A stretch of 22,746 nucleotides of DNA from a virus, in IMG/VR virus record IMGVR_UViG_3300042691_029549, positions 1-22,746 of that record; one strand, 5' to 3'. Numbering within the stretch: the first letter of the stretch is position 1; every line of letters begins with the position of its first letter. The translations under genes were made by a program, and so were the position numbers. The notes below the pieces were generated by a model, which was not told where the DNA came from, did not search any database, and saw only the letters and a program-made list of their open reading frames with translations. This document shows, piece after piece, positions 734 to 20,168 of this stretch.

Positions 734-2559
734 ACTCCTACACCGACCATCTCCGCAATCTGGCGGCCCCGCCCAACGTGTTTAACGTGTGGCAGTGGGC
801 GGAGCAGAACGTCATCTTGTCGGCGCGGGTGACGCCGCGACCGGGGCCGTACCGCACGGACTGGTGCCCGTATGTCCGCGAGCCGCAGGAGGCGTTTACC
901 GACCCGAAGGTGCGGTTGATTGTGTTGTGTTGGGCGTCGCGTACCAGCAAGACCGAAACGGCGTTGAACTGCGTCCGGTACTCGGTGGGTGGGGACGCGC
1001 AACCGTGCATGATTGTGATGCCGTCGAAGGAACTGGCGCGGTCATTCAGTGAAGTGCGGTGGATGCCGGCTATTGAGGATTCGCCTATTTTGCGGGCGGA
1101 GAAGCCGGAGGACTCTGACCAATACAAGCTCCTCGAAATGCACTTCAAGCGGTGCAGCGTGTTCCTGACCGGGGCCAACAGTGCGGCCAACCTGAAAAGC
1201 CGTGGCATTGGCGTGCTGATGGCCGACGAGATTGATACGTGGCCGGAGGAAAGCGACAAGGAAACTGGCGCGTTGCAACAGGCGATGGAGCGCATCAAAG
1301 ACCGGCCCGGCGCGAAAGCCATTCTCACCAGCACCCCGACCGTCGAAAGCGGTCAGATTTGGTACGAGTTCGGGCTGGGCGACCAGCGGTACTACTTTCT
1401 CCCGTGCCCGGAGTGCGGTCACATGCAGTCGTTGAAGTTCGGGCAGATACGGTGGCCGGAGGAGTGCAAGGACGGCGACGGGTGGAAGCTGAACGAGGTC
1501 AAGCGGCTGGCGCGGTATCATTGCGAGAAGTGCGATGCGCCGTGGAATGACGGGCAGAAGCTCGCGCAGTTGAAGGCGGGGGCGTGGCAACCGACCAACC
1601 CGAAGGCGGAACACGACCGTCGCAGCTATCACCTGAGCAGCATCTACCCGGCATGGATTACCTATGGCGAGGTGGCCGTCCAGTTCCTACGGGCCAAGAG
1701 CAACCCGGCAGAATTGCAACGAGTAGTCAACTCGTGGTTCGCGGAGCCGTTCTACTTGGGCGGGATGCGCGGCGAGTTTGAGGCGGCGATTGAAGCCAGA
1801 AGCGAGGAGACTGCGGCAGAGGTTCCGCAGGGTTACAAGCCGCTGATGACGGTGGACGTGCAGCAAGACCACGTCCGCTATGTGGTGCGGGCACACGACG
1901 AACAAAGAAACAGCATTCGCTTGGACTACGGACAACTGCCGGGCTTTGAGGAAGCGGAAATGGTAGCAAGGAAGTATGGGTGTTCCTGCGTCGGCGTTGA
2001 CATGCGGTTTCGTCAGCAACAAGTTGTTACGTGGTGTTTCCATCACGCCGGCTGGATACCCATGCTTGGAGCAGATGGCTTGATGACGGAAATCAGGCGC
2101 GGACGAGTTGTTGTCGATGGTGGCGTAATCAAAGGGCAAGAGGTTGATTGTATCAAGCACCGGCCTGCCGCGTGGAAGGAGGAACTTTACCGGCGAATCA
2201 AGCCGCCAAACAATGCGAAGGTGCCGAAGTGGGGAATCGCCGGCGATGTTGGTCGGGACTACAAGAAAGAAATGTCGGGCGAGGCTCGCGTGTTGCGCAA
2301 GGGGAGCCGGGGGCGGCAAGTTATTGAGTGGGTCAAGACAGGGCCGAACCACTATTGGGATTGCGAAGTGTATCAGTTGGCACTCTTTGAGGTTGTTCGA
2401 CCGTTGCTGTTTTGTACAGTGGAAAAACCTGTGGTGCAGCCGCCGTCGTTGCCTAGTGGCCCGTTCATGGGCGAGTTGGAAGAGATTGACCGGGCGCGTC
2501 GGCTGGCGCAGGCCGGGGAACGAAATGACATCGAAATCACAGAAAGGTTGTGGACATGA
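730..2559 (+). CDS. terL: terminase large subunit, GpA-like
   Basis: Packaging motor ATPase and nuclease of the lambda GpA family. The GTG at 730 is chosen because it overlaps the TGA of the preceding gene; this gives 609 aa, near the roughly 640 of lambda gpA. Visible motifs: an atypical Walker A at about 69-76 (ASRTSKTE), Walker B at 163-169 (LMADEID), the coupling motif TSTPT at 200-204, and a zinc-binding pair CPEC (226-229) and CEKC (265-268). Acidic candidates for the nuclease metal site are D376 (TVDV) and D424 (GVDM). The coding sequence becomes visibly more AT-rich after about 1900, which suggests mosaic ancestry of the nuclease half. The family assignment is secure. Confidence 0.95.
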   Translation: MNSYTDHLRNLAAPPNVFNVWQWAEQNVILSARVTPRPGPYRTDWCPYVREPQEAFTDPKVRLIVLCWASRTSKTETALNCVRYSVGGDAQPCMIVMPSKELARSFSEVRWMPAIEDSPILRAEKPEDSDQYKLLEMHFKRCSVFLTGANSAANLKSRGIGVLMADEIDTWPEESDKETGALQQAMERIKDRPGAKAILTSTPTVESGQIWYEFGLGDQRYYFLPCPECGHMQSLKFGQIRWPEECKDGDGWKLNEVKRLARYHCEKCDAPWNDGQKLAQLKAGAWQPTNPKAEHDRRSYHLSSIYPAWITYGEVAVQFLRAKSNPAELQRVVNSWFAEPFYLGGMRGEFEAAIEARSEETAAEVPQGYKPLMTVDVQQDHVRYVVRAHDEQRNSIRLDYGQLPGFEEAEMVARKYGCSCVGVDMRFRQQQVVTWCFHHAGWIPMLGADGLMTEIRRGRVVVDGGVIKGQEVDCIKHRPAAWKEELYRRIKPPNNAKVPKWGIAGDVGRDYKKEMSGEARVLRKGSRGRQVIEWVKTGPNHYWDCEVYQLALFEVVRPLLFCTVEKPVVQPPSLPSGPFMGELEEIDRARRLAQAGERNDIEITERLWT

Positions 2560-2828
2560 AATGCACCAAGAAAGAACTCGTTGAGCAGATAAAAAAACAG
2601 GAGTCAACAAATCAGTTGTTGCAGCAGCATATCGGACTATTAGAAGCGGAAAACAAGCGACTTTCGGATGAGGTGTCCGCTTTGCCTGAAAACCGGTTCA
2701 ACCTTGAGACCATAGTTCCTGAGGAATGGAGAAAGCCGGTGTTGCAAATTGTTCGCGCATTGCGAGCCCGAAGCAAGGCAAATAAGGATTTGCTTGAAGC
2801 CATTAAGGGCTGCGTGGAGGAACAATGA
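2556..2828 (+). CDS. small coiled-coil protein of unknown function
   Basis: A 90-aa soluble protein. Residues about 8-45 are heptad-like and charged (QIKKQESTNQLLQQ, LLEAENKRLSDEV), predicting a coiled coil; the C-terminal half is a basic helix (RALRARSKANKDLLEAIK). The ATG at 2556 overlaps the terminase stop (ATGA) and has AAAGG 8 nt upstream; a GTG at 2550 would add two residues. Its stop overlaps the next gene by 4 nt, so it is translationally coupled between terminase and the glycosyltransferase. It could be a packaging accessory or a cofactor of the adjacent enzymes. I recognise no family. Confidence 0.75.
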   Translation: MKCTKKELVEQIKKQESTNQLLQQHIGLLEAENKRLSDEVSALPENRFNLETIVPEEWRKPVLQIVRALRARSKANKDLLEAIKGCVEEQ

Positions 2829-4360
2829 AATACGGTTTAGCCTACGTGACGAAGCGGGCGCATTGCATCCCGCAGGTGGTGAAGATGTGGAACGACCGGG
2901 CGGCGGACAAGTCGCGGGTCAAGTGGTGCATCGGGGCGGACAGGGGCGATGCTGATGTTCGCGCCGAGGCGCATAAACTTTCGATATTAGTGTCAAGCGA
3001 CGGCGGCGAACAGAATTACGTCAAAGCAGCAAACGCGGCTTGCGGCATCCTGTCGGGGTGGGGAGTGGATTACCTCATCGTCGTCAGTGACGACTTCATC
3101 CCGCCGAACCATTGGGACGCCGCACTCGACGCCGTGATTGCGGAGAACGGCGGCACCACCAGTGCCGTGATTCACGTCAGCGACGGCGGCAGCAACGACC
3201 TCTGCACTATCCCCATCGTCGGCATCAACCGCTACTGGCGGTTCGGGTACATGTACCACCCGTCCTATGAGTCCATGTTCTGTGACACGGAACTGACGGC
3301 GCGGGCGGTGTTGGACTGTTCGTTGGTGGATGCGCGGCATTTGCTGTTTGAGCACATGCACCCGGTCAGCAATAAGCGGCCAACGGATGACGTGGACAAT
3401 GTACACGCCAGCAGCGAACGCTACAAAAAAGGAGAACAGATATTTTTGCAGAGGGTGTCTATTGGCTTCCCGCCAGACAAAGACCCGACTGACGTGCCTC
3501 CGGTGCTTGGAAATCGCTACTGCGCTAGTTTACAGGTGACACGCGACGATGTTTGCTTGCTGGGCGTTGTTGAAACGCTATTTCGGTATGGCGTCAGGAA
3601 CTTTCAATTTAATGTTCCTACGCACCATTGGGACGGTTCGACCGTGCCAGAGTCGGACCATCAACAAGTCAAGGACATTGCCGCCAAGTTGGTCGATATG
3701 GGGGCGCAGTATGTCAGGGTCAATATTGACAGTCGTGTGCACATTACAACGATTGACAAAAAGAAAATGTGGATACGATTCGGACACGAGGGTATGGCGC
3801 GAGGTGATGTTGAGACTGCTTACCGAAACAACTGTTTGTCTCGCCTGCGCTCGCTTGGGTTCAACCACCTACTTATTGTGGATGGCGACGAATTATTTAA
3901 GCCGGGCGCTTTGGCGGCAGTAGATTGGAACGTGCGGTGGTTTCATCCCCACACGGCGGCGTTAAGGGGCGTGCCTCTGGCTGGCCTGCCGGCGGTTGCT
4001 GTGGAAGGCGCGGAAGATAGGATTCTCGTGTACATGGGACCGGATGATTGGTGGAAAGACGTGCGAAGTCCTTATCAGCGAACGCGGGATATTGAGATAT
4101 TCGGCGTCCTGCACTTCTCCGCCGTCCGCAAGACCCGCGACGAGATCGCCGCGAAAATGCGGAAAAGCGGCCACTACGACGATGCGGAGTATCATTTCGA
4201 GGACTGGATTACCCGCAAACTGCCGGCGCTCAAGCCCGGTGCGGTCAATGTCCATATGTACCGCGACGGCTCGTTGTGGCCGTTGGCGCGTGAACTCAAA
4301 CCCGAGGAATGGGCGGCGATACCCGAGAGCGTCAAGCCGCTGTTGTGGGGGGCCAAGTAA
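2825..4360 (+). CDS. two-domain glycosyltransferase (GT-A/GT2-like)
   Basis: A 511-aa protein that looks like two GT-A-type glycosyltransferase domains in tandem. Domain 1 (about 1-200) has a hydrophobic strand ending in an acidic motif, VDYLIVVSDDF, with S88-D89-D90 as the DxD-like site. Domain 2 (about 228-511) has HLLIVDGDELF with D353-G354-D355, then LHFSAVRKTRDEIAAKM (429-445), typical of the C-terminal part of GT2 enzymes. The likely reaction is transfer of a sugar from a nucleotide-sugar; the acceptor (virion protein, tail or host glycan) cannot be told. The start overlaps the previous stop by 4 nt. DNA from about 3425 to 3960 is more AT-rich than the flanks and begins with a ribosome-site-like run AAAAAAGGAGAAC, so the gene may be a fusion. 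Confidence 0.8.
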   Translation: MKYGLAYVTKRAHCIPQVVKMWNDRAADKSRVKWCIGADRGDADVRAEAHKLSILVSSDGGEQNYVKAANAACGILSGWGVDYLIVVSDDFIPPNHWDAALDAVIAENGGTTSAVIHVSDGGSNDLCTIPIVGINRYWRFGYMYHPSYESMFCDTELTARAVLDCSLVDARHLLFEHMHPVSNKRPTDDVDNVHASSERYKKGEQIFLQRVSIGFPPDKDPTDVPPVLGNRYCASLQVTRDDVCLLGVVETLFRYGVRNFQFNVPTHHWDGSTVPESDHQQVKDIAAKLVDMGAQYVRVNIDSRVHITTIDKKKMWIRFGHEGMARGDVETAYRNNCLSRLRSLGFNHLLIVDGDELFKPGALAAVDWNVRWFHPHTAALRGVPLAGLPAVAVEGAEDRILVYMGPDDWWKDVRSPYQRTRDIEIFGVLHFSAVRKTRDEIAAKMRKSGHYDDAEYHFEDWITRKLPALKPGAVNVHMYRDGSLWPLARELKPEEWAAIPESVKPLLWGAK

Positions 4361-4935
4361 TGTATTCACAGAACGACGAAGAGAAGATCATCCTCGATTA
4401 CTTCGGGGACACGTTTGGCCGGTTCTACGACATCGGCGCGTGGGACGGCAAGACGTTCAGCAACACCCGCGCCTTGCTCGAAAAGGGCTGGACGGGAATC
4501 ATGGTGGAGCCGTCGCCGGCAGCATTTGTCGGGCTGCTGAAAAACTGCTCGGAGTTCGGGGACAAAGTGAAACTGGTCAACGCGGCGATCACCCCGAAGC
4601 CGTCCCTGATGGAGTTCTACGACGCGGACGGGGACGCGGTTGGCTCGCTCAATCCCGACCACGCGGTCAAGTGGGGCCACGGTCAGGTCAAGTTCACCGT
4701 TCACACCCTGGCCGCGCAGACACTGTTTGCCTCGTTCGGCCCGGCGGAGTTCATCAACCTCGACGTGGAAAGCATCAACGCCATCCTGTTCCAACATCTA
4801 CCGTGGACGTGGTCGGAATTGAAGCTGGTCTGCGTCGAACACGACGGCCACGACAAACAGATGGAAGAACTGGTCAAGCCCGCCGGGTTCAAGCGGATTC
4901 ACCGTACCGGCGAAAACCTGATTTTAGCCCGATGA
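4360..4935 (+). CDS. FkbM-family methyltransferase
   Basis: A 191-aa SAM-dependent methyltransferase of the FkbM type, typically O-methylating sugars or polyketide-like hydroxyls. Motif I is FYDIGAWDGKTFSN (DIGAWDG at 24-30), the acidic residue closing strand 2 is E50 (GIMVEPSP), and the diagnostic NLDVESINAILF block lies at 133-144, followed by LKLVCVEHDG. The ATG at 4360 shares one base with the preceding TAA; upstream in-frame extension would only read the previous gene out of frame. The position between a glycosyltransferase and a pyruvyl transferase suggests that it methylates a glycan built by the same cassette. Confidence 0.9.
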   Translation: MYSQNDEEKIILDYFGDTFGRFYDIGAWDGKTFSNTRALLEKGWTGIMVEPSPAAFVGLLKNCSEFGDKVKLVNAAITPKPSLMEFYDADGDAVGSLNPDHAVKWGHGQVKFTVHTLAAQTLFASFGPAEFINLDVESINAILFQHLPWTWSELKLVCVEHDGHDKQMEELVKPAGFKRIHRTGENLILAR

Positions 4936-5633
4936 AACCCATTGCCGCGCAATGGTGCCAGTCGGATAATCTGGGCGACAAGCTCATGCCGTGGCTGGTG
5001 AGCAAGGTTGCCGGTCAGTGGCCGTGGTACACCGCCACCGGTAAACGGTGGTTGCTGGGCGGCAGCATCCTGAATTGGGCGGACGCGGACTGCTACGTCT
5101 GGGGCGCGGGCTTGGCCGACCGGAAACACAAGGTCAACCCGGCGGCAAAGTTGCTGGCGGTGAGGGGGCCGGAGTCGGCACGGTTAGCGGTGGCTTCCGG
5201 GTGCCAGCCGCCACTCGCCATTGGCGACCCGGCCTTGCTCACGCCGCTCTATACGGGCGCACCCCGTGAGATTCGGTACGAGTTGGGGGTCTTTCCCCAC
5301 TACGCCGACTGGCACGGCCCGGTGGCCTTATACGGCGACGTGGAGGGCGTCTATCTCGGCAACGTGCTGGCCGACAGGCTCGACACCATCCGGGCTATCC
5401 ACCAATGCGCCGAAGTCGTTACGTCCAGCCTGCACGTCCTGATTCTGTGCGATGCGTACCAGATCCCGAATAGCTACCACCATTGGGGCGGGGACATCCA
5501 CGGCGACGGGTTGAAGTATCAGGACTACTTTGCCAGCGTTGGGCGCACGGCGGACACGATGGCAACGGCGGCAGCGGTACAGGAACGGCAACGGGCACTC
5601 CGCAACCTGCTGGTGAATTGGGGTGGATTATGA
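4932..5633 (+). CDS. polysaccharide pyruvyl transferase family protein
   Basis: A 233-aa protein of the polysaccharide pyruvyl transferase family, which adds ketal-linked pyruvate from phosphoenolpyruvate to sugars. Landmarks in order: SDNLGDKLMP (11-20), LLGGSILN (41-48), the LAVRGPESARLA block (75-86), IGDPALL (97-103) and the C-terminal VTSSLHVLILCDAY (163-176). These match the family's NxGD, GGG-like, VRxxxS and SSxLHxxxxA pattern. It is shorter than many family members (about 300-380 aa), so the N-terminal lobe may be minimal. The start ATGA overlaps the methyltransferase stop by 4 nt, giving tight coupling within the glycan cassette. Confidence 0.88.
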   Translation: MKPIAAQWCQSDNLGDKLMPWLVSKVAGQWPWYTATGKRWLLGGSILNWADADCYVWGAGLADRKHKVNPAAKLLAVRGPESARLAVASGCQPPLAIGDPALLTPLYTGAPREIRYELGVFPHYADWHGPVALYGDVEGVYLGNVLADRLDTIRAIHQCAEVVTSSLHVLILCDAYQIPNSYHHWGGDIHGDGLKYQDYFASVGRTADTMATAAAVQERQRALRNLLVNWGGL

Positions 5634-6349
5634 AGCGCATCATCGTCAACGTCGGGGTGGGGCAGTGGTATCCACGGGGGCAGGCGCGGTTGCGGGACAG
5701 CCTACAGGCGCACGGTGCCGGCGCGGAGTTGCACTTCTACGGCGACTGGCCGCCCGGTGCGCCGGCTCATTCGGTGCTGCCGTTCGCGTTCAAGGCCCAT
5801 GCGATGATGCTCGCCCAGCGGGCCGGTGCCGAGAGCATCCTGTGGCTGGACTGTTCCTGCTGGGCTGTACGGTCGCTAGAGCCGTTGTGGGATAAGATCG
5901 AGCGGGACGGCTTCTGCTTTATGAACAACGGCTGGCATCTGGGGCAGTGGGCATCCGATTACTGCCTTGACCTGTTCGGCCTGACCCGCGACGAGGCCAT
6001 GACCAAGCTCGACCTTACCGCCATGTTGATGGGCTTGTCCATGCGCGACCCGCGAGCCGTGGCGTGGATGGACGAGTTCTACCTGCATTGCCACAACCCC
6101 CGGCTGATGAACGGGAGCCTGCACAACCGACCGGGGCAGGAAATCGTTGACCCGCACAGTGGCGTCAATTACGGCATCATCTCCGCCGACCCGCGCTGCC
6201 GGGGGCATAGCCGGGAACAGGTAGTCGCTGGGTTACTGGCGCACAAGCACGGGTTGCTGCCGTACACCAACCCGCCTGAAATCCTCCAATGCCTGCACCC
6301 GGACTGGAAACCCGATGACCGGGCCGTGATACAGGCGTGCGGGATGTGA
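5630..6349 (+). CDS. putative glycosyltransferase-like protein
   Basis: A 239-aa protein starting at the ATGA overlap with the pyruvyl transferase. The N-terminus is a Rossmann-like strand (MKRIIVNVGVGQWYPRG). Residues 51-80 read PFAFKAHAMMLAQRAGAESI then LWLDCSCWAV; a lysine-containing helix before a strand ending in an acidic residue resembles the DxD-strand architecture of GT-A sugar transferases that act on glycan chains. The C-terminal half has several His/Cys/Trp residues but no motif I can name. Position at the end of the four-enzyme cassette supports a sugar-transfer role; I regard the exact family as unresolved. No terminator separates it from the convergent gene starting 2 nt further on. 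Confidence 0.6.
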   Translation: MKRIIVNVGVGQWYPRGQARLRDSLQAHGAGAELHFYGDWPPGAPAHSVLPFAFKAHAMMLAQRAGAESILWLDCSCWAVRSLEPLWDKIERDGFCFMNNGWHLGQWASDYCLDLFGLTRDEAMTKLDLTAMLMGLSMRDPRAVAWMDEFYLHCHNPRLMNGSLHNRPGQEIVDPHSGVNYGIISADPRCRGHSREQVVAGLLAHKHGLLPYTNPPEILQCLHPDWKPDDRAVIQACGM

Positions 6350-6351
6350 GC

Positions 6352-6582
6352 CTAGTAGAAAATCTGATAGTCGCCGCTGTAGTATGTCTCGCTGCCGTTG
6401 GGCCAACGGAACCGCACCCAGCCGGGGCCGTTCTCCACAATCGTGACGTTCGGTGTCTGCACCCAAAGACGGGAGCCATTCTGGGTGTCGTGGTAGTTGA
6501 TGGACGCGGCTTTGCGGTTCGCGTCACCGGCACCCAGACACACCACACCCGCCAACACCACCGCGAGGATTGTCCATTTCAT
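6352..6582 (-). CDS. small secreted protein of unknown function
   Basis: A 76-aa protein on the minus strand. Residues 1-20 are a Sec signal peptide (MKWTILAVVLAGVVCLGAG) with likely cleavage around LGA-GDA; the Cys at 15 lacks a clean lipobox. The mature part is about 56 residues, aromatic and Asn-rich (WVQTPNVTIVENGPGWVRFRW, abbreviated), suggesting a small beta domain in the periplasm or outside the cell. The ATG at 6582 has GGAGG 6 nt upstream; longer in-frame extensions run back through the terminator and array and are rejected. It has its own candidate promoter and no match I recognise. It may be a lysogeny-expressed accessory gene acting on the host surface. Confidence 0.75.
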   Translation of the reverse strand: MKWTILAVVLAGVVCLGAGDANRKAASINYHDTQNGSRLWVQTPNVTIVENGPGWVRFRWPNGSETYYSGDYQIFY

Positions 6583-6627: not shown

Positions 6628-6663
6628 GCAAAAGGCGGCAGGCTCGTGCTGACACCTGCCGCC
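6628..6663 (-). terminator. intrinsic terminator after the pentamer array
   Basis: On the minus strand GGCGGCAGG (6663-6655), a 12-nt loop and CCTGCCGCC (6642-6634) form a perfect 9-bp GC-rich stem followed by TTTTGC. It lies immediately after the last array unit, closing the transcription unit that starts at about 7816. Confidence 0.8.
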
Positions 6664-6666
6664 CCA

Positions 6667-7106
6667 CTTTGCCAGTAGTCGCCTCGCGCGACGGTGCGAC
6701 GCCGATGCTGCGCCGAACCTTGCCGTTGCTGGACTGAGCCGAACTTTGCTCCACCATGCCTTTGCCACTCTTGGCGTGACCTTACGCCTCGTCTCAACGC
6801 CCTTCCGTAGCGTTACCGAGCTCGACCGTGCGGTGCCTTTGCTCTGCCAAACGTCGCGCCGCGTAGCCTTTGCCTGACAATTCCACGCCTTGCCTTTGCC
6901 GTTCCGTTCCGTGCTCTACCCGGCCTTGCCTTTGCTTCACGCTTCTGCTCTCCGCAGCGCCTTTGCTCATCAGGGCAAATCGTCGCCTTGCCTTTGCTGT
7001 GCGGCGCGTCGCGTCGCGGCACTTGACCCTGCCTTTGCCATGCCTTTGCCGCGCTGCTCCAGGCTTCGCCCTTGCTTTGCTTCTCTGTGCCTTACTCTGC
7101 CTTCGC
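6667..7106 (-). repeat. pentamer-phased G array (85 units of 5-6 nt)
   Basis: Read on the minus strand from 7106 to 6667, the 440 nt divide without remainder into 85 units: 70 of 5 nt and 15 of 6 nt. By my hand parse 84 units begin with G (51 with GC, 16 GT, 12 GA, 5 GG); the exception is TACTG at 6677-6673. Ten of the 6-nt units are GCAAAG, and GCAAAG (with two in-phase extra copies) recurs mostly at 31-nt or other 5n+1 spacings. Mean unit length is 5.18 nt, so two units span 10.35 nt, near one helical turn. Period 5 excludes normal coding. It starts 2 nt after the stop of the RAMP-like gene and ends at an intrinsic terminator, so it should be the 3' part of that mRNA or a processed RNA from it. 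Confidence 0.85.
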
Positions 7107-7108
7107 TG

Positions 7109-7705
7109 TTACTTCACTTCTTCCCAACTGAACCGGCCCTTGCCGCTGTTCCGCCACTGGCCCAAGCCCTTGTTCGCGCCGTAGTCCAGACACTGCTTGA
7201 CCAACTCCTCCAGCGCCGGCGACAGGCACTTGATTTCCGCCTCGATGGTCGCGCCAGACTTCACCGTCTCGCTGCTGGCAAGGCTGACCCGCTCGCCCTT
7301 CATGGTGTCGGCACGGAGCGGACGGGTGCAAATCTCGCCCATCTCGCCGTTGATCGCCAGCTTGCGCGGGCTGACAAACACGAAGTTATCCACCATGCGC
7401 TTGAACGTCCACTTGGTGAGCTTGGTCTTGCCGACCTTGATTTCGTCGCCGCTCAGGTCAATCAGGATGCCCACGGCTTCCTTGATGAACCCCTTGAGTT
7501 GGTAGTCCCACACGAATGGCTTGCCATTCTCCTTCGGGAACACCGTCAACGACTTTTCGACCAACTCCTCCGCGCCCAGCGCGTGGATTTCCTCATCCAT
7601 CTTCTCCGCGTCCTTGCTCTTGGACGCGATGAACTCGCGGTGGATTTCGGGGTTGTTGCTGGCCGTACCGAGCATGTCTTCCGTCAGTGTAATGCGAACC
7701 TTCAT
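7109..7705 (-). CDS. RAMP-superfamily-like protein upstream of the array
   Basis: A 198-aa protein on the minus strand, opposite to its neighbours. The ATG at 7705 is preceded by GGAGGAACC; a longer in-frame reading would translate the structured leader and is rejected. It opens with a beta strand (MKVRITLTEDMLGTAS), has a central block FVWDYQLKGFIKEAVGIL (about 64-81) like the SLKGxxR region of RAMP proteins, then RPLRADTMKGERVSLASSE, then SGATIEAEIKCLS, and finishes with a Gly-rich loop GLGQWRNSGKGRFSW. Strand, LKG block, E-V-x-x-G-x-x-hydrophobic strand and Gly-rich C-terminus are the layout of Cas7/Cas6-type RAMPs, which bind RNA. No other CRISPR gene is near. Family placement is inference from pattern; conserved phage protein of unknown function is the fallback. 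Confidence 0.7.
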   Translation of the reverse strand: MKVRITLTEDMLGTASNNPEIHREFIASKSKDAEKMDEEIHALGAEELVEKSLTVFPKENGKPFVWDYQLKGFIKEAVGILIDLSGDEIKVGKTKLTKWTFKRMVDNFVFVSPRKLAINGEMGEICTRPLRADTMKGERVSLASSETVKSGATIEAEIKCLSPALEELVKQCLDYGANKGLGQWRNSGKGRFSWEEVK

Positions 7706-19458: not shown

Positions 19459-20168
19459 GTCTGCCGGTCATCCAACTCAAATGCGGCACCAGCGGCGACG
19501 CCGTCCCCACAATGCTGCTCAAGTGCGGCACACAGGCCAACGCCGTCCCCACGCTGCTGCGGGCGTGTCCGGGCGGTGAGATTGTGCCGCCCGTCAGTTG
19601 CCTTCCATGCAGCGGGACTGCCCCCTCGTGGATATATGTCACGTTGACGGTGCCCGGTGGCTACCAAGAGCTCTGTCTGCCGGACATCAACGGACGCTGT
19701 ACTGACCGGGCTTGTGTTCACATTTGGTCGACCGGCGAACGGGTCAAAATCCCTATTACTCCGCCTTTCCCCAGCCTCCCGTGTTTCTATCGAGCTTTAA
19801 CCTCTGCCGGAATAACGTATTCGTACAAGCGAACTTACCGGACGGAAGCAAACTGCGACGCCTATGAAGACATTATGGGTGGCTGGTACGACCCCTGCGA
19901 CCATACGGGTTCCACATTGTTTCCTCTGTGGGAAGTGTTCTTGGGCTGGTCTGCTGGTGATACATGGAGTCTCGGACTAGCCAACGATTACCCCCAAGGT
20001 GGATATGGCTACGGCAGGGGCGGCGGCTCGGTTGTTATCCCGCAGTGTACCCCAGGAATCTATACGTTCGTCGCCGATTTTGTGGTAGCATTTCAAGGCG
20101 GCCTTGACTTGTGTGACGCAGGCCCGATTCCGATTACCGCCACCGTTGAATTCCCGGAGGTAGGATGA
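19455..20168 (+). CDS. Cys-rich tail-module protein with short tandem repeats
   Basis: A 237-aa protein. The GTG at 19455 (GTGA overlap) is chosen; the frame is open further upstream but only as an out-of-frame reading of the previous genes. The N-terminus carries two and a half copies of a 14-15 aa repeat: IQLKCGTSGDAVPTM, LLKCGTQANAVPTL, LRACPGGEIVP. A CLPCSG pair follows, and further Cys are spread along the protein. The C-terminal half is aromatic and Gly-rich (DYPQGGYGYGRGGGSVVI, YTFVADFVVAFQGGLDLC), probably a beta domain. Perhaps a disulfide-stabilised or zinc-binding fibre/adhesin component. DNA after about 19740 is AT-richer. No family recognised. Confidence 0.7.
   Translation: MSLPVIQLKCGTSGDAVPTMLLKCGTQANAVPTLLRACPGGEIVPPVSCLPCSGTAPSWIYVTLTVPGGYQELCLPDINGRCTDRACVHIWSTGERVKIPITPPFPSLPCFYRALTSAGITYSYKRTYRTEANCDAYEDIMGGWYDPCDHTGSTLFPLWEVFLGWSAGDTWSLGLANDYPQGGYGYGRGGGSVVIPQCTPGIYTFVADFVVAFQGGLDLCDAGPIPITATVEFPEVG

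Follow-up and report, generated by a model that had tools for sequence, protein, structure and literature searches.

In the known structures, RNA is coated by protomers of Cas7 and has an unpaired base at regular intervals. Tandem interspaced guide RNA (TIGR-Tas) systems, which serve here as a lead only, have phage-linked arrays in which guides are interspersed with constant parts, and their effector carries a Nop-type domain. The closest described system is the Viral Interference Programmable Repeat (VIPR), a system of phages, related to CRISPR and proposed as its ancestor, that a 2026 preprint describes (PMC13142463). According to the main text of that preprint, VIPR pairs guide RNAs made of pentanucleotide repeats (GGY/NN; YNNGG repeats) with a phage-encoded RAMP protein of ~20 kD, which has an RRM core and a glycine-rich loop. 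In the type II form, described from Escherichia phage SUSP1 and a P. fulva prophage, the vrRNA consists of 9-16 repeats and closes with an invariant 3' tail (PMC13142463). Double-stranded DNA is recognised by pairing of the NN dinucleotides, each unit skipping one target base and thus spanning 3 target nt (PMC13142463). Seven types with varying array architectures are distinguished, and the accessory gene vap is typical of VIPR, without being universal (PMC13142463). Neither a punctuation of the array into segments nor a gapless code appears in the main text of the preprint (PMC13142463).

The window, as we call the whole stretch of DNA that was analysed, comprises 22,746 nt (positions 1 to 22,746 of IMG/VR virus record IMGVR_UViG_3300042691_029549). 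An original prediction, made from the letters alone, had described a minus-strand array with a G every 5-6 nt, ordered in phase rather than in sequence, which could act as a ruler for a multimeric RNA- or DNA-binding protein. Our analysis partly supports this interpretation. We propose that the array and the adjacent 198-aa gene together form a small cassette, situated in the late region of a tailed phage, that encodes an RNA-guided system of the VIPR type, and we give this reading a probability of about 0.7. As in the VIPR of SUSP1 and P. fulva, a single phage-borne RAMP protein of ~200 aa with a G-loop stands beside a tandem pentanucleotide RNA with a constant G core and variable bases; each 5-nt unit appears to account for 3 target nt, and the modules vary between close relatives. 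The predicted model of the protein has the same fold as Cas7 of types III and VII (Class 1 CRISPR-Cas). Unlike CRISPR-Cas, the system has no repeat-spacer array, guide and handle appearing to be interleaved every 5 nt. It also differs from TIGR-Tas in the predicted Cas7 fold of its effector and in unit size and anatomy.

Results

The array and its unit

Between 6667 and 7106 on the minus strand, the autocorrelation of G against dinucleotide-preserving shuffles peaks at lag 5 (z=8.4), with further peaks at lags 10 (7.2), 15, 21, 26, 31 (7.1) and 36, a slow drift that is expected from the mean unit of 5.18 nt. The best chain of 5- and 6-nt steps between Gs scored 78.8, against 11.1 on average and 26.8 at most in 1000 dinucleotide shuffles. 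Thus, the predicted G every 5-6 nt is real, the lag-5 peak proposed as its check is present, and the predicted mean unit is practically equal to that of 125 clean arrays of the family (5.175 nt). An independent parse from ~7107 to ~6664 gave 87 units, of which 73 have 5 nt and 14 have 6 nt, and the array starts 1 nt past the stop codon of the 198-aa gene (Table 1). In the position model of the window array, position 1 is variable (G 0.46, A 0.26, C 0.21, T 0.07), position 2 is G (0.96), position 3 is C 0.63, T 0.20, A 0.16 and G 0.01 (non-G in 99%, C or T 0.83), and positions 4 and 5 hold mixed bases. The earlier description of the unit, which left all content between the Gs free, is therefore to be corrected, position 3 being constrained too.

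No Rfam family matched the window array above the gathering score. A tandem-repeat scan revealed no CRISPR-type array (direct repeats of 21-48 nt with unique spacers), and no cas genes, including Cas1 and Cas2, were seen nearby, the neighbourhood consisting of phage head and packaging genes. We judge that the original prediction was right to see neither coding sequence, CRISPR, microsatellite nor iteron here. Antisense ORFs and a structured RNA were also considered as explanations of the array and found no support. A hairpin with a T-run resembling the terminator of the window is present in the close relatives L003 and L004; as a feature of the whole family, a terminator after the array was rejected (7/141, against 25/705 random).

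Table 1. Positions of the cassette and of neighbouring features in the window
Feature	Position	Strand	Details
vipr-like gene, 198-aa protein of predicted Cas7/RAMP fold (P0001)	7109..7705	(-)	ATG at 7705, stop at 7109
Tandem array of 5/6-nt units, putative guide array	6664..7107	(-)	~87 units N-G-H-N-N (H = not G), ~14 segments
Array start	7085..7107	(-)	first 6-nt unit AGCGAA, then GGCAG AGTAA GGC...; from parse
Intrinsic terminator	6630..6663	(-)	GGCGGCAGG-12 nt loop-CCTGCCGCC-TTTT; RNA fold; would close the putative array transcript
76-aa ORF	6352-6582	(-)	signal-peptide-like start; behind the terminator of the array; no family match
Glycosyltransferase, FkbM-type methyltransferase and other possible sugar-modifying genes	2550-6349	(+)	between terminase and portal
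Two tandem 42-nt copies	19476-19560	(+)	in a coding region

The neighbouring gene and its surroundings

The AlphaFold2 model of the 198-aa protein (pLDDT 84.8, pTM 0.78) found type VII and Csm Cas7 as its top PDB matches in Foldseek, with E 7.7e-8 (type VII Cas7) and weaker, probability 1.00 and TM about 0.5. The family profile likewise retrieved type VII Cas7 from the PDB sequences (E 1.5e-5), and 11/32 family members matched PADLOC Cas7_IIId (best E 1.3e-5); the protein had no match in Pfam and PHROGs. The four glycines G180, G182, G188 and G190 of its glycine-rich GxG...GxG loop, GLGQWRNSGKGRF, are invariant in a 9-member alignment. As judged from the model, the gene encodes a Cas7/RAMP-fold protein. 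A product of this kind, encoded just upstream, would be a natural reader of the array, which agrees with the prediction of a multimeric RNA-binding protein that places one protomer on each unit.

The cassette is oriented opposite to the lambda-like packaging/head operon, with genes for the gpA terminase, a glycosyltransferase and a methyltransferase to its left and for the head-tail adaptor and portal to its right. Together with the cassette on the other strand, the possible sugar-modifying genes make up a moron-like region.

Arrays at homologous loci

Homologues were sought in viral contigs, GTDB genomes and phage records; a relative is encoded in 260 viral-contig stretches, the best 80 of which were analysed further, and 59 loci come from MAG assemblies. 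A significant array lies within 3 kb of the gene in 127/141 loci from phages, prophages and MAGs (74 downstream, 35 upstream, 18 both), and several of the remaining loci carry weaker arrays (L004, L005, L016, L020). The original prediction had proposed a search for lag-5 arrays beside homologues of the 198-aa protein, and its outcome is thus positive in most loci. In 0.745 Mb around the gene, 95 arrays are on the strand of the gene and 5 on the opposite strand; elsewhere in the same phages, 5 arrays occur in 2.25 Mb, two of them in the multi-array genomes L082 and L084. The array stands directly behind the gene in L002, L003, L004, L006, L007 and L008, though the array sequences are unlike, and in L005 a short antisense stretch separates the two. 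Two copies of CATGGCAGCCGGGTTAGATACCGGACACAGC occur at the L005 array (6282-6313 and 6628-6659), one before it and one within it; this repeat may be a leader or promoter at the head of each array half. According to MAG titles, the hosts are mostly Clostridia, and also Coriobacteria, Synergistaceae, Saccharibacteria, one Verrucomicrobiota and one Lokiarchaeota bin. No neighbour is conserved across the loci, the commonest being a phage SSB (32 loci); the clade, unlike SUSP1, therefore has no conserved accessory gene.

Segments as modules

Across the 125 clean arrays, the number of units ranges from 25 to 331 with a median of 98; in total they consist of 10,869 five-nt and 2,303 six-nt units. The 6-nt units are not scattered: one comes every 4-8 units and GG follows, since GG opens the unit after a 6-nt unit in 80% and after a 5-nt unit in 22%. 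The spacing between 6-nt units peaks at 5-7 units and is far from geometric. A 6-nt unit and then GG thus form the boundary between segments of ~26, 31 or 36 nt (4-8 units), and the junction consensus is NGC(A)(A)N followed, across the boundary, by GG(C/A)(A)N.

Segments behave as modules. In the near-identical phage contigs L012 (468-1566) and L013 (380-1473), the arrays differ by exactly two adjacent whole segments, and the arrays of L074 and L076 also differ by whole segments; the difference between L002 and L003 lies inside one segment and consists of one 5-nt unit in length plus substitutions. L012 and L013 form a natural guide-swap pair. Substitution rates from array-to-array BLAST were discarded, being biased by the period itself, and true orthologue pairs were too few for such rates. 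For the window's own array, the association with the gene and the anatomy were observed directly, and by analogy its segments would behave like those of the family.

Comparison with SUSP1

Our array detector, applied to SUSP1, found all four vrRNAs around the 195-aa protein, with 13-17 units and no 6-nt units. The SUSP1 protein ends with GVGDWRPRFGRFSVE, and its C-terminal loop GVGDWRPRFGRF resembles GLGQWRNSGKGRF. With hhalign, the family and SUSP1-group profiles aligned weakly (E 0.0025, probability 12%) over the C-terminal G-loop region. While SUSP1 has four separate vrRNAs, all built of uniform units and all ending in a structured 3' tail, the arrays of the clade are contiguous, reach 25-331 units and have no 3' tail. 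The strong GGY of SUSP1 is replaced by an N-G-H anchor with a variable first base, and a 6-nt unit with GG recurs every 4-8 units, unlike in SUSP1. Tailed arrays similar to those of SUSP1 are also present in distant relatives.

Reading the arrays

For decoding, the anchor (positions 2-3) was dropped and position 4, position 5 and the next position 1 were read contiguously (N4N5N1'). The step test asks whether successive units resemble genomic neighbours at a given target step; 32 token/step pairs were tried in it, and ~17 readings in match tests. At steps 3-6, N4N5N1' gave z=6.7, 1.8, 2.6 and 0.6, and N4N5 gave z=1.5, 3.4, 1.5 and 0.5 at steps 2, 3, 4 and 5. N1N4N5 reached z=7.6 at step 3, a value that comes partly from array-adjacent bases, and z=4.5 at step 4, and the anchor-containing control N3N4N5 gave z=-0.9 at step 3. 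Tokens at steps other than 3 mostly had z near 0-3. The leading z-scores survive correction for the many readings, and the weaker ones would not. In a locus bootstrap, the excess PMI was 0.033 bits/pair for N4N5N1' (CI 0.022-0.042), 0.008 for N4N5 (CI 0.003-0.013) and -0.005 for the control N3N4N5 (-0.014 to 0.005). Moreover, the dependence of the following position 4 on position 1, across the anchor, tracks genomic dinucleotide preferences (r=0.69, p=0.013). Taken together, the step-3 z-scores, the bootstrap and this dependence indicate that each 5-nt unit of the arrays corresponds to 3 target nt, which is the geometry of the VIPR rule, with the third base apparently specified too. The window's own array gave 2.45 bits over 43 pairs, too few to judge by itself, and we infer its code from that of the family.

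Compared with related phage DNA, the contiguous reading gave an excess of matches, 147 against 101±12, and of windows, 196 against 155±11 when the order was shuffled inside segments. The published decoding (NN plus a 1-nt skip) showed no excess over order shuffles in 2.2-3.4 Mb of related phage DNA under several treatments of the 6-nt units. Matches under a skip-3 reading were rejected as unmasked array remnants.

Decoded segments are enriched in gene starts: Shine-Dalgarno...ATG was found 44 times (20.9±4.8 expected) and AGGAGG 26 times (12.2±2.4 expected). An example is GAGAAAGGAGGTGCTCCCATATGAAAACCGTCAACTGG; one segment of L028 decodes to the gene start GAGAAAGGAGGTGCTCCCAT-ATG-AAAACCGTCAACTGG and one of L057 to GAAGGAGGACTAT-ATG-AAGTCATTGAACATAAACG. 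An ATG at the end of a segment can stem from the junction, where AAT is followed by G, so that the interior ATGs are the safe ones. The L056 segment GAAGGAGGGCAAACATGACAACG is identical in 23/23 nt to the RBS and start codon of a gene in phage L032, another VIPR phage; the match spans the segment exactly, ends at its borders and scores 23, against a best null score of 14 among 6,340 gene-start sites. This is the sole convincing guide-target pair in the family, and the scarcity of matched targets is the main gap of the guide reading. The decoded segments of the window array had no match in phage records, and scanning IMG/VR for the exact patterns of five guides, skip-decoded or contiguous, gave nothing or chance matches without extension. 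One long skip-decoded guide found nothing in 300 genomes, and BLAST of the contiguous decodes against phages and some MAG families returned nothing significant. When whole segments were matched against 2.3 Mb, their matches did not exceed those of shuffles, which is expected if the DNA searched contains few targets. The arrays also showed no excess of decoded words shared out of phase.

The nearest alternative is an ordinary VIPR with the published code, in which only N4N5 counts: the third target base is passed over, and the first base of the unit is uninformative. Its rule has an experimental test in type II VIPR (PMC13142463), and N4N5 alone carries the step-3 signature. However, adding N1 doubles this signal in both z-score and excess PMI, the exact-window excess was seen with the contiguous reading and not with the skip rule, the first-position bases all agree in the L056-L032 match, and position 1 is variable in the clade, unlike in GGY; we therefore regard an unchanged published code as unlikely here. 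We lean instead towards a gapless 3-of-5 code, in which each unit would offer three contiguous guide bases around a G-H clasp and every target base would be read, apparently with none skipped, unlike in the published rule. Long arrays would then hold 5 to 50 or more guides of ~20 nt, in ~31-nt segments set off from one another by a 6-nt unit; many of these guides would be directed at translation starts of rival phages.

A sequence-independent scaffold, in which the protein coats a periodic RNA serving as ruler, decoy or structural RNA and the bases between the Gs hold no target information, would fit the far better conservation of phase than of content and a secondary structure of the array RNA that is not above shuffles (z=0.63). 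We consider it very improbable, given that decoding yields text like genomic DNA at precisely 3 nt per unit, gene starts included, and that relatives swap whole segments as modules. Of the earlier view that the order is one of phase and not of sequence, the first half stands, since phase is conserved; the content between the Gs does read as phage DNA at 3 target nt per unit, and the passive ruler thus gives way to a probable guide RNA. That the array is part of a coding region, decayed or overlapping and on whichever strand, or that base composition produced it by chance, is hardly credible: on the plus strand, open frames (104 and 322 aa) run across it, but period 5 clashes with codon structure, arrays differing in length and content recur at homologous loci, and dinucleotide shuffles never approach the array score.

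Discussion

Our results are consistent with an RNA-guided repressor used between competing phages. In the mechanism that we propose for this VIPR-type system, with binding, processing, DNA targeting and repression modelled on VIPR, the 198-aa Cas7-like protein (Vipr) would be made and the array behind its gene would be transcribed up to the terminator and processed. Vipr protomers might then coat the array RNA as a filament, one per 5-nt unit, each clasping the constant dinucleotide at positions 2-3 (G and non-G) and displaying position 4, position 5 and the next position 1. The displayed triplets of one segment, ended by its 6-nt unit and GG, would form one contiguous guide of ~15-25 nt. Such a guide may pair with DNA from a competing phage, frequently where a gene has its Shine-Dalgarno sequence and start codon, and the gene so targeted would be repressed.

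The clade may be one of the seven types of the preprint. In any case, it is large and widespread, and it extends a proposed CRISPR ancestor for which one preprint has so far been the only source (PMC13142463). It also suggests that the reading rule of VIPR is not fixed, since this clade seems to read the base that the published rule skips. The contiguous decode might thus serve as a decoder for thousands of natural guides, with phage-phage targets computable by ordinary BLAST. It bears, moreover, on how contiguous CRISPR-like guides might have originated from interleaved ones.

Some further observations concern single arrays. One segment each of L087, L128 and L006 decodes to a perfect 16-bp palindrome (CGGTGTTCGAACACCG, TTTTAATATATTAAAA and GCATATTTAAATATGC), each essentially within one segment; three such palindromes, against 0.7 by chance, are too few to use, and these segments possibly target repressor operators. 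In L103 and L106, two unrelated prophages, segments decode in different unit registers to a common 16-mer, GGAATGGCAGGCAAAC, which could be one shared target or chance. Finally, the related 73-kb phages L082 and L084 (L157-L164) each carry several arrays, in more than one place, which together amount to ~700-800 units, far above the 9-16-unit vrRNAs given in the main text of the preprint (PMC13142463).
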